From: Paracoccus sp. S1E-3
GTDB lineage: Bacteria; Pseudomonadota; Alphaproteobacteria; Rhodobacterales; Rhodobacteraceae
DNA: 64,000 bases
Reading direction: 5' to 3'
Assembly: GCF_013868135.1 (NCBI RefSeq)
Contig: NZ_JACEMU010000009.1
Span: 2,501-66,500 of the forward strand
The notes under the pieces were generated by a model. The model had not been told where the DNA came from. It did not search any database and was given only the letters and a program-made list of their open reading frames with translations. Each line of letters begins with the position of its first letter. Within the stretch, counting starts at the first letter, position 1. A program made the translations under genes and the position numbers. Below, in pieces: positions 44,767 to 49,797 of this stretch.

Positions 44767-44770
<4 letters not shown>
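43526..44770 (-). CDS. hsdS: type I restriction enzyme specificity subunit
   Basis: A 414-residue HsdS with two target-recognition domains. The first begins near [19 protein letters not shown] and the second near [16 protein letters not shown]. Each is followed by a helical spacer with the conserved [20 protein letters not shown]-type motif after the first and [20 protein letters not shown] after the second. The bipartite target sequence cannot be read from the protein. Start overlaps hsdM by 4 bases. Confidence 0.95.
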
Positions 44771-46308
<1,538 letters not shown>

Positions 46309-46374: not shown

Positions 46375-47055
46375 CTAACAGCGGCTTGGCGGGGTTCTTT
46401 CCCACGGCTTTGCCTTCGGCATCGCCCCTGTCACCTCGACCTCGCGCAGCATCCCGCCTGCGATTAGCCCCTGCCGGACCCAGCCCAGCGCCTGCCACCA
46501 GTCGTCATAGCCGCGACGGGCAGCGTCGATCTGCTGCGGGTGGGGCGAGAAGGTGACCGGGCAGGCCAGGATGTCGATGGTCTTCCATGTCGCTCGGGCA
46601 CCCGCGCCACGCACGCGGATGCGCTCGGTGCCGACGACGATGGCGCCCGCATGCGTCCCATGCTGGTTCTGCTTGACGATGGTCGGCACGCAGCGCGGGA
46701 TGGCGCCCGGCATCCAGTCGGGGGTCAGACCTGCGCGGGCCAGTTCGGCGACGCGGATCGCCATGCGTTTGCCGCCGAGGATGTCGGGGATCCCGGCGAC
46801 GGTGGCGGCGATCACCTCGGCGTCCTCGTGGGTGTAGCCGCCGATCTTGTGCTGGCCGCCGTCGATCTTGCAGCCGAGCACGGCGCGCTGCAGCAGGACG
46901 TATTCCAGGCCGAAGCCGAACCCTTCCTCGGTGACGTCCGGGGGCAGGGGCAGTTCCAGCTGCGCCTGTTCGATCCGGAACGCCCATTCCAGCGCCGCCT
47001 GCACGCCCAGCGCGCGCTTGATCCTGGTGCCTCTGACGCGGCCGTGGAAACTCAT
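46375..47055 (-). CDS. hypothetical phage protein
   Basis: A 226-residue protein (MSFHGRVRGTRIKRALGVQA...) with conserved-looking segments such as GFGLEYVLLQRAVLGCKID, HKIGGYTHEDAEVIAATVAG and HAGAIVVGTERIRVRG. No domain was recognised. Its ATG overlaps the stop codon of the alternative frame at 47052 (TGA within CATGA), so it is probably translated after that frame. Context: early region of the prophage. Confidence 0.75.
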   Translation of the reverse strand: MSFHGRVRGTRIKRALGVQAALEWAFRIEQAQLELPLPPDVTEEGFGFGLEYVLLQRAVLGCKIDGGQHKIGGYTHEDAEVIAATVAGIPDILGGKRMAIRVAELARAGLTPDWMPGAIPRCVPTIVKQNQHGTHAGAIVVGTERIRVRGAGARATWKTIDILACPVTFSPHPQQIDAARRGYDDWWQALGWVRQGLIAGGMLREVEVTGAMPKAKPWERTPPSRC

Positions 47056-47645
47056 CGCTGCAATCCTTCAAGGAAATCCATCTGCGCCGGGCGCTGGGCT
47101 GCATCCGTCGGCCGCCAGATCCACGGGCCCGAGGCCATGGGCAGCTGCGAGAGAGCGCCACGCATGTGCTGCTGCCAGAGGGTGAACTCCGTTGCCGAGC
47201 AGGCGCACAGCGCGTGCCCGATGGGCCAGCCCATCAGCCATCCGACGAAGAGCGGGTTCAGCCGCCGCCGCGACCGGCCCTTCAGGATCCGCCGCGAGAC
47301 GGCGCGCCCATGCGAGGCAATCATCGAAGCCCAGAGCGGGCGCGAGATCGGGGCGTGCGGCAAGGACCGCGGCCCATCGGGCGAGGTCGCCGGGGCCGGG
47401 GGGGTGAAGCCCTGCTCCGCCCGGTAGTGCAGCAGATCCATCCGGGATTTGCCGTCGCTGCGGGTGACGCTGGCCTCCGAACTGCCCTTCCAGTTCTGTG
47501 CTGCCGGGGTCGGCCAATGGTTCGGCAGGGCCTTCGCGATGCACAGTGCCAGCGCCTCCGCCTTCCGCGTGAACCGAAGGTCCGCGACAGCGAATTCGCT
47601 GTTCCCGGCCGGGTTGTAGCGGCCGGTGCCGGGATGCAGGCTCAT
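47052..47645 (-). CDS. overlapping ORF within the cytosine methyltransferase gene
   Basis: A second reading frame over the 3' half of the methyltransferase gene encodes ~197 residues from an ATG at 47645. It has protein-like segments: NHWPTPAAQNWKGSSEASV and RLNPLFVGWLMGWPIGHALC, then FTLWQQHMRGALSQL. Such WPTP...LNPxFVxWLMGWP strings recur in phage methyltransferase proteins I know of. Its stop overlaps the next gene's start (ATGA), the coupling seen throughout this cluster, whereas the methyltransferase frame ends 15 bases short of it. Alternatives: a frameshifted gene or a fortuitous frame. Confidence 0.55.
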   Translation of the reverse strand: MSLHPGTGRYNPAGNSEFAVADLRFTRKAEALALCIAKALPNHWPTPAAQNWKGSSEASVTRSDGKSRMDLLHYRAEQGFTPPAPATSPDGPRSLPHAPISRPLWASMIASHGRAVSRRILKGRSRRRLNPLFVGWLMGWPIGHALCACSATEFTLWQQHMRGALSQLPMASGPWIWRPTDAAQRPAQMDFLEGLQR

Positions 47646-48156
47646 TGGTGTGGGCCAGGATGAAGATGCGCAGCCGCTCATGCGGCGCGCCGACCTCTGC
47701 CGCCGAGAACAGGCCCGCCGCAGGCGAATAGCCCAATCCCCAAAGCTCTCGCAGGACGGTTTCAAGGCCGAGAGTGACGTGACCGGCGACGTTTTCGAGG
47801 AAGACCCATTCGGGGCGGAGCTCAAAGATGACGCGGGCGACATCAGGCCAGAGATGGCGGGGATCGTCGGCGCCGCCGCGCTTTCCGGCCGCGCTGAAGG
47901 GCTGGCAGGGATATCCAGCCAGCACCGTGTCGAAGGCGCCGCGGAAAGGGCGGGCGTCGAAGCTGCGCAGGTCGGTCCAGATCGGGGCCGGGGCGAAGTA
48001 GCCTGCGCGCTGGGCGGCAATGAGGACGGCGCGGGGCCAGTCCTCCCATTCGACGAAGGCGCGGGTGTGATAGCCGGGTTCGGCGAGCATGAGGCCCAGA
48101 TCAAGGCCTCCGCCGCCAGCGCAGAGGGACAATCCGTGCCGGGGACGAAGCACCAT
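47068..48156 (-). CDS. phage DNA cytosine-5 methyltransferase
   Basis: A 362-residue C5-methyltransferase. Motif I reads LSLCAGGGGLDLGL, motif IV GYPCQPFSAAGKR with the catalytic Cys, motif VI FLENVAGHV, and motif VIII HERLRIFILA. Motif X is RLLGNGVHPLAAAHAWRSL near the C-terminus. The section between motifs VIII and X (~residues 175-260) is low-complexity in this frame and overlaps a second frame that looks more protein-like there. The start may be the ATG 48156 or a GTG at 48165 that overlaps the upstream stop. Confidence 0.8.
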   Translation of the reverse strand: MVLRPRHGLSLCAGGGGLDLGLMLAEPGYHTRAFVEWEDWPRAVLIAAQRAGYFAPAPIWTDLRSFDARPFRGAFDTVLAGYPCQPFSAAGKRGGADDPRHLWPDVARVIFELRPEWVFLENVAGHVTLGLETVLRELWGLGYSPAAGLFSAAEVGAPHERLRIFILAHTNEPASRHRPLQPGREQRIRCRGPSVHAEGGGAGTVHREGPAEPLADPGSTELEGQFGGQRHPQRRQIPDGSAALPGGAGLHPPGPGDLARWAAVLAARPDLAPALGFDDCLAWARRLAADPEGPVAAAAEPALRRMADGLAHRARAVRLLGNGVHPLAAAHAWRSLAAAHGLGPVDLAADGCSPAPGADGFP

Positions 48157-48161
48157 GCCAT

Positions 48162-49169
48162 TCACCGCACCCCGCGCTCGCGCAGGCGTTCGGCTGTCAC
48201 CAGCCCCCGGGCCAGCATGGCATCGCGCATCGTGTTGCTGATCGCGCTGACCGGCAGGTAGCGGTCGGAGTTGACCAGATCGGCGTAGAAGGCGGGCAGG
48301 TCGGTGATCGGCTTGGTGGCCGGAGCAGGGGCCACCTTGGGCTTGCGCCGTTTCCGGGCCGTATCCTCGACCTTGCGCTGGGCAGCACGCTGCATCGCCC
48401 GGTCCAGCGCCTTCGGCCCATCGGGCGGTTCGGGATGCTCATCGCGGGAGGCCTCGGCCGCGGCGATGATCTCCGCCTCGGTCAGCCCCAGCTCGTCACG
48501 CCAGCGCTGGACGTGCAGCCGGGGCGGCCAGCCTTGCCACCAGCCGGGCAGGGCGTCGGGGTCGAGGCCCAGCGCGCCGAGCAGGTCCCCGAAAACCTCA
48601 TCGGGTACGCCTTCGCGCGCCTGCGCGCCCTCCTCCTCCTTTACTGGTTTACTTAGAGGTTCCCTTACAAGGTTAGTGTCCGAAATCCGGACACGGCTTT
48701 CAGCATTTTCCGGACACGGGTCAGCCGGAAAATCGGACACGGCTTCCGCATCGATTCCGTGGCCGAAATCTGGACACGGCAAGGCATCGAACGCGCCGTC
48801 CAGGGGCGAACCCTCTGCCATGTCGGCGATTTTCGCATCGGGGCATTCCCCGTGTCCGATTTCCGGACACGGCACCACAGCTACAGGTGTGAAGCCCGGC
48901 TCGAACCCCAGGATGTAGCGTGTCGGCAGCTGGCGCTTGGTCACGGGATCGAGCCGCGGAACACGCCGCAGCAGGCCCACCGCCTCAAGCTGGCCAAGGT
49001 GGTCGTTCAGCGTGGACCGGCTGATTTCGCAGTCATGCGCCAGCCGATCCTGCGAGGGGAAGCAGCCGAAATCAGGGTTGAACCGGTCACAGAGGTGCCA
49101 GAGCACGATCTTGGTCGTGGGCTTCAACCCGCGCTGCTTTATGGCCCAGTTGGTGGCCTCGTGGCTCAT
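48162..49169 (-). CDS. winged-helix (HTH_36-type) phage replication/regulatory protein
   Basis: A 335-residue protein. The N-terminal ~90 residues form a winged helix (MSHEATNWAIKQRGLKPTTK, then CFPSQDRLAHDCEISRSTLN) like replication initiators and the Rhodobacter prophage helix-turn-helix proteins. A long linker and a helical C-terminus with KRRKPK follow. The ATG 49169 has GGAGG about 9 bases before it; the frame's extension to 49742 is a shadow. In the linker region, GHG/CPDFGHG-type patterns recur (CPEIGHG, CPDFGHG). It may start phage replication. Confidence 0.8.
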   Translation of the reverse strand: MSHEATNWAIKQRGLKPTTKIVLWHLCDRFNPDFGCFPSQDRLAHDCEISRSTLNDHLGQLEAVGLLRRVPRLDPVTKRQLPTRYILGFEPGFTPVAVVPCPEIGHGECPDAKIADMAEGSPLDGAFDALPCPDFGHGIDAEAVSDFPADPCPENAESRVRISDTNLVREPLSKPVKEEEGAQAREGVPDEVFGDLLGALGLDPDALPGWWQGWPPRLHVQRWRDELGLTEAEIIAAAEASRDEHPEPPDGPKALDRAMQRAAQRKVEDTARKRRKPKVAPAPATKPITDLPAFYADLVNSDRYLPVSAISNTMRDAMLARGLVTAERLRERGVR

Positions 49170-49561
49170 GGCGCGGGCCTCCGCGGGGCGGGCGCGATGC
49201 GCGTTGTGAAGCCGTGATCCGCCAGCGCGCCCAGCGCGTCGTCGAGACTGCGCACCAGCGCCCAGCCGAAGCCCTGAGCCAGAACAGCATCGCGGAATGA
49301 TTCCTGCTCCGGCCGCAGCCGCCCTTTCGGCGCTTTCAGCTCGAGGAACAGGACACGGCCGTCGCAGATGACCATCAGATCGGCGAACCCGGCATGGACG
49401 CCCATGCCGACAAGGATCGCCTGGCGCTTGGCTCCGCGGGGCCCGGCCTCGGTCACCTCGTTGGCGCAGTGGTGGATGATGGCCGAGCGGGGCAGGGCTA
49501 TGCGCAGCGCTTGAACGACCGCGCGCTGCAGATCGGCCTCGGGGGTGCCGCGGCGCTTCAT
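49166..49561 (-). CDS. VRR-NUC nuclease
   Basis: A 131-residue stand-alone VRR-NUC domain. The PD-(D/E)xK-like core is GFADLMVICDGRVLFLELKA, with a following GRLRPEQESFRDAV helix. Phage-encoded VRR-NUC proteins are believed to resolve branched DNA during replication or recombination. It overlaps the genes on both sides by 4 bases (ATGA), indicating tight coupling. Confidence 0.92.
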   Translation of the reverse strand: MKRRGTPEADLQRAVVQALRIALPRSAIIHHCANEVTEAGPRGAKRQAILVGMGVHAGFADLMVICDGRVLFLELKAPKGRLRPEQESFRDAVLAQGFGWALVRSLDDALGALADHGFTTRIAPAPRRPAP

Positions 49562-49797
49562 CGCGCGGCCCTCCCCTGATCCTCGCGCTGGGCGCGCCGT
49601 ACCGGCCGCCGCGCGTCAACCACCACCAGCAGGCGCTGCGCCTCTGTTCGCTCGGCCGACGTCTCGCCGTGCTGGACGAGCACATTGCATGCGAGCCGGA
49701 TGAGGAGATCGCTGTGATGCGCGACATCGGCGATGACGGCACGGGCCTCGGCCACGCGGTCGGCGGGCCAGGCGGAACTGCGGGGGTGGATCTTCAT
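49558..49797 (-). CDS. 79-residue hypothetical phage protein
   Basis: Starts MKIHPRSSAWPADRVAEARA at 49797, overlapping the excisionase-like gene's stop. Predicted helical with HHSDLLIRLACNVLVQHGE in the middle and an Arg-rich tail. No family recognised. Coupled to VRR-NUC downstream, so probably an early phage gene. Confidence 0.7.
   Translation of the reverse strand: MKIHPRSSAWPADRVAEARAVIADVAHHSDLLIRLACNVLVQHGETSAERTEAQRLLVVVDARRPVRRAQREDQGRAAR

Follow-up and report, generated by a model that had tools for sequence, protein, structure and literature searches.

A phage cytosine methyltransferase gene open in two overlapping frames, probably encoding the two parts of one split enzyme

Can a phage gene encode two proteins along nearly its whole length, or is a second open frame within it a by-product of base composition or the trace of a frameshift? 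This question is raised by a C5 cytosine methyltransferase gene in the window, the 64,000-nucleotide stretch of Paracoccus sp. S1E-3 DNA analyzed here. The initial annotation had noted two protein-like frames over the 3ʹ half of this gene and proposed either a dual-coding overlap of about 590 bases or a frameshift product that kept both halves. Both frames are open at the position given, on the minus strand (F1, 365 aa; F2, 369 aa), and the peptides quoted from each are present there. Dual coding is supported by reciprocal stop avoidance, alternating dN/dS, excess conservation of F2, and separate coding sequences in phages K1G and Tadhana. The proposed length was too short, as the two frames overlap by about 1.09 kb (about 1,094 nt), which is the whole gene. 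The parts of the locus are as follows.

47068..48165, minus strand: F1, the C5 cytosine methyltransferase frame (putative alpha), 365 aa from GTG 48165, with an alternative ATG at 48156; motifs I-VIII and X, without IX
47052..48161, minus strand: F2, the +1 frame (putative beta), 369 aa; N-terminal peptide, spacer, WPTP modules, motif IX-like block and tail
48159..48165, minus strand: tandem start GTGAATG; F1 GTG 48165-48163, upstream gene stop TGA 48164-48162, F2 ATG 48161-48159
48081..48161, minus strand: F2 N-terminal peptide MAWCFVPGTDCPS..., both frames constrained; z 13.6 at residues 2-11
47755..48045, minus strand: F1-constrained, F2-unconstrained stretch; F1 residues 41-137 with PCQ and ENV; F2 a stop-free spacer
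47401..47661, minus strand: F2-constrained, F1-unconstrained stretch; F1 residues 169-255 a stop-free spacer, predicted disordered; F2 with the WPTP modules
47517..47657, minus strand: F2 module 1, WPTPMSLHPGT...
47406..47516, minus strand: F2 module 2, WPTPAAQNWKG...HYRAEQGF
47217..47261, minus strand: F2 motif IX-like block LNPLFVGWLMGWPIG; F2 dN/dS 0.09
47146..47205, minus strand: F1 motif X RLLGNGVHPLAAAHAWRSLA; F1 residues 321-340, F1 dN/dS 0.13
47052..47055, minus strand: ATGA, shared by the F2 stop and the start codon of the next gene (46375-47055)

The stop of the upstream ORF is the TGA inside GTGAATG, so that the F1 start, the upstream stop, and the F2 start all fall within 7 nt. At the other end, the F2 stop is fused to the start of the next gene in ATGA (47055-47052), as first described. 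The position of the F2 stop was scored in 75 of the 76 F1 relatives: in 74 of these it falls inside NTGA (the start of the next gene was not confirmed each time), and in 61 it comes exactly 16 nt past the F1 stop.

F1 contains motifs I-VIII with the catalytic PCQ and ENV, has both sequence and fold matches in the PDB to C5 methyltransferases, and matches phrog_363 (E 5e-53). It had been credited with motifs I to X, a claim that does not hold. Pfam PF00145 (4.4e-31) covers residues 12-177 only, and a motif IX pattern was found in none of 44 F1 representatives versus 14 of 17 classical enzymes in frame. The pattern was composed with this classical set in view, and the set comprised 17 of the 19 genome loci without F2 (L285 and L293 excluded). 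A motif X pattern (GN[GAS]..P-type) is present in 40 of the 44. The AlphaFold model of F1 (mean pLDDT 62.5) is largely folded up to residue 178, after which residues 179-254 all fall below pLDDT 50 with no secondary structure; the motif X helix is modeled at residues 329-342 with pLDDT about 91. By Foldseek, the model matches M.HaeIII and M.HhaI across about 170 columns. The recognition domain and motif IX are not in the same chain as the F1 catalytic domain, given the absent pattern (0/44) and the region modeled as disordered.

If F2 is also a coding frame, stops should be missing from it beyond what F1 imposes. The window gene alone has no F2 stops against 2.8 expected under synonymous shuffling (P=0.016), a value that could arise by chance in one GC-rich gene, so the case for double reading rests on relatives. 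From 151 loci, 27 representatives less than 75% identical in the N-terminal half were drawn. Under the N-terminal half of F1, these contain 6 F2 stops versus 68.6 expected, and F2 is fully open there in 22 of the 27 versus 2.5 expected; stops in the third frame number 163 versus 151 expected. Over the C-terminal half, 22 F2 stops were counted versus 55.4 expected, including those in bases past the F2 stop. The avoidance is reciprocal. When F2-synonymous codons were shuffled in 40 loci (4 of the 44 representatives were skipped, their end points not having been located), F1 stops under the F2 modules came to 22 versus 152.4 expected and F1 was open in 38 of 40 loci versus 2.6 expected, with 266 third-frame stops versus 244 expected. 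All 22 F1 stops come from two loci, 14 in L192 (neutral 12.3) and 8 in L205 (neutral 8.2). Motif X of L205 now lies in the F2 frame, so openness of F1 under the modules is no longer needed there. In L192, F1 is broken mid-gene after motif VIII and motif X is left stranded in the F1 frame, an arrangement for which the split-enzyme model gives no explanation.

High GC content was considered as the source of the second open frame and rejected. In 87 flanking ORFs of at least 200 aa (not checked as genes), stops in the +1 frame were not depleted (453 versus 439.5 expected); the +2 frame had 488 versus 582 expected. Methyltransferase genes without an F2 match also speak against it: stops in the +1 frame number 6-30 in the 19 such genome loci and 0-4 in 20 of 22 loci with a match (the exceptions are Tadhana with 11 and L278 with 7). 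Lower GC accounts for part of this difference, yet eight loci without F2 at 56% GC or above carry 6-13 stops. In phage C75C1, both frames are open across 460 codons at 48% GC.

Selection along the gene was followed in close relatives from IMG/VR (79 loci for F2 and 76 for F1), with 55 of the 76 F1 loci retained, 53 of them distinct, after exclusion of cut, broken, and distant loci. Comparison of substitutions by codon position, the check put forward with the original proposal, revealed selection in both frames. In the 53 relatives, the most variable base is F1 position 3 in residues 41-140 (0.29-0.38 different) and F1 position 1, which is F2 position 3, in residues 181-240 (0.29-0.35 different). 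Synonymous variation in F1 drops at residues 168-178 to 0.07 of its level at residues 41-140 and is also low at residues 1-30 and 138-148. The dN/dS values along the gene are as follows.

Residues 1-30: F1 0.29, F2 0.47
Residues 41-137: F1 0.09, F2 2.69
Residues 138-168: F1 0.24, F2 0.98
Residues 169-255: F1 1.90, F2 0.19
Residues 256-300: F1 0.49, F2 0.70
Residues 301-320: F1 1.59, F2 0.09
Residues 321-340: F1 0.13, F2 0.73
Residues 341-365: F1 2.23, F2 0.36

These values were counted for each frame as if it stood alone, ignoring the overlap; values above 1 therefore mean that a frame is not constrained in that stretch and do not indicate positive selection. Constraint mostly takes turns between F1 and F2 along the gene. 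Computationally, then, selection acts on F1 as well as on F2, for the most part in alternating stretches, and stops are kept out of each.

Conservation of F2 residues beyond F1-preserving shuffles (42 sequences) is strong at residues 2-11 (z 13.6), 137-151 (z 13.6), 270-284 (z 17.9), and 310-319 (z 39.8), while other F2 windows exceed the shuffles less strongly (z 3.2-21). The third frame also rises above its shuffles (z 0.5-6 in most windows and 11-17 in three windows at residues 300-340). Shared ancestry therefore inflates z, and only the excess of F2 over the third frame counts. Synonymous constraint upstream of the modules (48076-48165; F1 residues 138-150) was attributed to the N-terminal peptide of F2 and to another F2 element.

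The genome that contains the window also has a second, 5ʹ-truncated copy of the gene (L002, contig C16 503809-504489), 93% identical over bases 434-1114. The 49 differences between the copies fall in 15 synonymous and 32 nonsynonymous codons of F1 and in 27 and 19, respectively, of F2. The truncated copy is without F1 residues 1-144, and the remainder of F1 is fused in frame to an ORF that is ATPase-like by eye, giving 702 aa in total; F2 from an inner ATG and the next gene are both open.

What F2 encodes is harder to read from databases. It matches phrog_27243 (E 4e-96, unknown function) and phrog_1008 (E 1e-14, 'DNA methyltransferase'). No Pfam model matched F2 at E up to 1 or distant F2 proteins at E up to 10, and Pfam matched only the catalytic part of single-frame and split relatives. 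The F2 profile had no match among PDB sequences at E up to 10, and an AlphaFold model of F2 alone was uninformative (pLDDT 47.5, pTM 0.14). A block of the LN...LMG[WFYL]P type is, however, present in 41 of 44 F2 sequences, with variants recognized by eye in the other three. In profile comparisons it aligns exactly on classical motif IX, but the match reaches significance only when two actinophage bridge sequences are included (E 1e-5) and not without them (E 0.094).

Relatives with other arrangements bear on this assignment. In Gordonia phages MelBins (L271) and Gudmit (L272), PTP modules, the block, and motif X are all found in the methyltransferase frame; the F2 profile matches MelBins in frame 0 (E 9e-5), and its search returned no match in Gudmit. 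Segments joined in a single frame were to count against the original proposal, and they do occur in these actinophages; dual coding at the Paracoccus locus is not refuted by them. Their joining instead suggests an identity for F2, as the part of the same enzyme that holds the recognition region and motif IX. Both genes are also mosaics: part of their PTP modules lies in the +1 frame, and those further along share frame 0 with the IX-like block and X, a pattern that looks like a switch of the modules' reading frame by recombination. Gordonia phage Upyo (L263) has motifs I-VIII in gene 54 and the modules, block, and X in gene 53, in the +1 frame; in both Upyo and L205, the order modules-block-X lies within the F2 frame, motif X having moved there. 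Taken together, the F1 frame without IX and with a disordered region, the F2 block, and the arrangements in MelBins, Gudmit, and Upyo make it most likely that F2 supplies the recognition region and motif IX. Close relatives differ by inserts in F2 of about 27 or 58 aa, made up of W[SQ]TP modules and placed ahead of module 2, with both frames remaining open. Such insertions suit exchangeable specificity units, although the reading of DNA by these units is inferred.

The two frames also begin together in many relatives. With the F1 start as chosen, 18 of 44 representatives begin the gene with NTGAATG, many of them behind a GGAGG-like site by eye, and 20 of the 44 have an ATG at +4. As background, an ATG at +4 follows 6 of 631 internal in-frame NTG codons and the first NTG of 29 of 834 ORFs of at least 150 aa, F1 genes included. 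Under a loose rule that admits weak pairs, an F2 start codon lies 4-13 nt after the F1 start in 33 of the 44; in the remaining 11, this relaxed rule found no start pair. F2 starts 88 nt downstream in K1G and 202 nt downstream in Paenibacillus phage Tadhana, the locus with 11 +1-frame stops. The ATG at +4 is well represented but K1G and Tadhana start later, and shared initiation of alpha and beta is thus inferred to be likely for the window's group and not universal.

The co-occurrence of F1 and F2 extends well beyond this locus. Among the matches listed, F1 was found in the same register in all 103 loci with an F2 match, and these 103 included no F2 without F1 and no standalone F2 gene. They comprise at least 80 IMG/VR loci (137 relatives among the first 600 stretches), genome matches, and 4 phage records, and they include repeated contigs and double places of one gene. 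Escherichia phages (L158, L160, and L161) and a Synechococcus phage (L159) are among them. In a set of 200 genomes of the phylum, 12 had F2 profile matches, among them the genome that contains the window. Of 13 further named phage records (L261-L273), 8 were chosen from the F2 match list and 5 (L269-L273) from the F1 match list; in 11 of the 13 (3 of the 5 chosen by F1) the F2 profile matched in the +1 frame, with MelBins matching in frame 0 and Gudmit not at all. The hosts of these 11 are Paenibacillus, Acidovorax, Gordonia, Acinetobacter, Mycobacterium, Klebsiella, Microcystis, Stenotrophomonas, and Pseudomonas; phage C75C1 names no host, and MW202733 is from spring water. As judged from sequence, the same double reading is one that recurs in phages of very different bacteria. 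A search with K1G F2 also matched 13 plasmid records, the frames of which were not examined.

In the records inspected, F2 is annotated variously as a methyltransferase, as 'Mte8-like' (K1G), as a hypothetical protein, or not at all. A gene read in two frames explains this uneven annotation of the second frame. Whether homologues encode the second frame as a separate protein, another check suggested at the outset, was borne out in K1G and Tadhana, where F2 is an annotated coding sequence of its own. In Acidovorax phage Alfacinha1 (L262 1504-2637), the coding sequence called a cytosine-specific methyltransferase is the F2 frame, and the catalytic F1 is unannotated.

Several neighbors of the gene were also noted. 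The upstream 526-aa ORF (window 48162-49742) is replication initiation O-like, and its 5ʹ part overlaps another frame, at 49166-49561, that resembles a VRR-NUC-type nuclease. By eye, an internal MSHEATNW is the probable start of the replication gene. Close downstream of the methyltransferase is a type I restriction-modification HsdM gene (window 44767-46308).

The explanation held with good confidence is that the gene encodes one split C5 cytosine methyltransferase, with alpha in F1 and beta in F2 pairing to form one enzyme. In alpha, the domain that binds SAM and carries out catalysis (motifs I-VIII) would be linked to a C-terminal motif X helix by a spacer unconstrained in sequence. Beta would begin with the N-terminal peptide, which is short and conserved, and continue through a spacer, only weakly constrained, under the catalytic domain to the W-P-T-P recognition modules and motif IX; the pair would rebuild a single enzyme. 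In the window's group, beta would most likely be translated from the ATG 4 nt after the alpha start, in the tandem NTGAATG that overlaps the upstream gene's stop, with one ribosome-binding site shared by both. The enzyme may then methylate phage DNA, probably protecting it. The two polypeptides, their pairing, shared initiation, and methylation are all inferred, as there are no expression or assay data. A frameshift that kept both halves, the second option raised at the outset, may describe how the gene originated, with dual coding as its present state; this too is inference.

Other readings of the gene fit some of these observations. In an unlikely variant of the split enzyme, beta starts not at 48161 but at an internal ATG at F1 residue 174. 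This ATG is present in 51 of 53 relatives, right where F2 constraint begins, and K1G and Tadhana have a later separate F2 start; yet no clear Shine-Dalgarno sequence lies upstream of it by eye, it is absent from distant relatives such as L149 and L150, and neither the F2 stop avoidance nor the N-terminal conservation upstream of residue 174 is expected from it. Ribosomal frameshifting would produce one mosaic enzyme, by a +1 shift after motif VIII that yields F1(1-168)-F2 and a second shift back that adds X. The course of selection, F1(I-VIII)-F2(modules, IX)-F1(X), and the sharp fall of F1 synonymous variation at F1 residues 168-178 are as this mechanism would have them. It is nonetheless improbable, since it needs neither F2 open under the catalytic domain nor F1 open under the modules, both of which are strongly depleted of stops. 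Moreover, F2 residues 2-11 are conserved, an F2 ATG 4 nt from the F1 start is common, and the shift back would lose the constrained F2 tail (dN/dS 0.36, residues 341-365).

It is very unlikely that F2 is an independent overprinted phage protein with a role of its own (e.g., anti-restriction) and no part in the methyltransferase, although selection acts on it as a protein, K1G has it as a coding sequence of its own ('Mte8-like'), and it belongs to no Pfam family. Relatives join F2-type modules and the block with motif X, or also with the catalytic domain, in one chain; F1 is without motif IX and without a folded recognition domain; and F2 never occurs without F1 in the 103 loci among the matches listed. 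That only F1 is coding and F2 arises from high GC is practically ruled out. The openness of F2 in the window alone reaches only P=0.016, which would leave room for such an artefact, but the codon-position shift, stop avoidance with its flanking control, F2 conservation, dN/dS, and C75C1 at 48% GC all oppose it.

The split enzyme, as preferred here, would be a natural two-subunit enzyme with subunits written over each other almost entirely and with a clear record of frame-by-frame selection. It offers a direct test case for the upkeep of long same-strand overlaps, through stop avoidance without sequence constraint, and for two protein starts 4 nt apart. It may also show how phages alter methylation specificity. 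A broader proposal, for and against which the case is evenly balanced, is that a class of co-initiated split methyltransferases, encoded in two fully overlapping frames, is widespread in phages of Pseudomonadota, Bacillota, Actinomycetota, and Cyanobacteriota, with tandem start codons served by one ribosome-binding site, spacers open only for ribosome passage, and beta as an exchangeable recognition cassette. Were beta such a cassette, target specificity could change without touching the catalytic subunit.

Among known C5 methyltransferases, M.HhaI and M.HaeIII are single-chain enzymes, in which one polypeptide carries the catalytic domain, the recognition domain, and motif IX. The F1 catalytic domain matches their large domain; unlike these single chains, F1 holds neither the recognition domain nor IX. 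PHROGs places the two frames of the window in different families (phrog_363 versus phrog_27243/phrog_1008). The beta gene of M.EcoHK31I is nested within its alpha gene in a different frame, and the second polypeptide frame of the window is likewise encoded within the first. M.EcoHK31I (YGGCCR) and M.AquI are both two-polypeptide C5 methyltransferases (PMC3404938). The large subunit of M.EcoHK31I is described there with motifs I-VIII and X and the smaller polypeptide with motif IX; F1 similarly has I-VIII and X without IX. However, the beta frame of the window is as long as alpha and apparently starts 4 nt after it, and its recognition region lies in beta as judged by selection, whereas that of M.EcoHK31I is predicted to lie in the larger subunit (PMC3404938). 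In M.AquI, the split falls in the variable region, and the small subunit is its distal half, with both IX and X (PMC3404938). Upyo and L205 resemble it in having IX and X together on the second chain; the window differs in that its alpha frame retains motif X and the two frames overlap almost completely.

No description of the phage arrangement turned up in the literature searched (among it PMC5582158, PMC3404938, PMC3439449, and PMC6456624), a search that did not cover most subscription journals. By analogy, the best reading is that the window system works like M.EcoHK31I; membership in the same group is not settled in the absence of a sequence comparison. What seems to be new relative to these enzymes is that the overlap is nearly total, that the start is shared, that the recognition region falls in the beta frame, that stop avoidance is mutual, and that the arrangement is widely spread.
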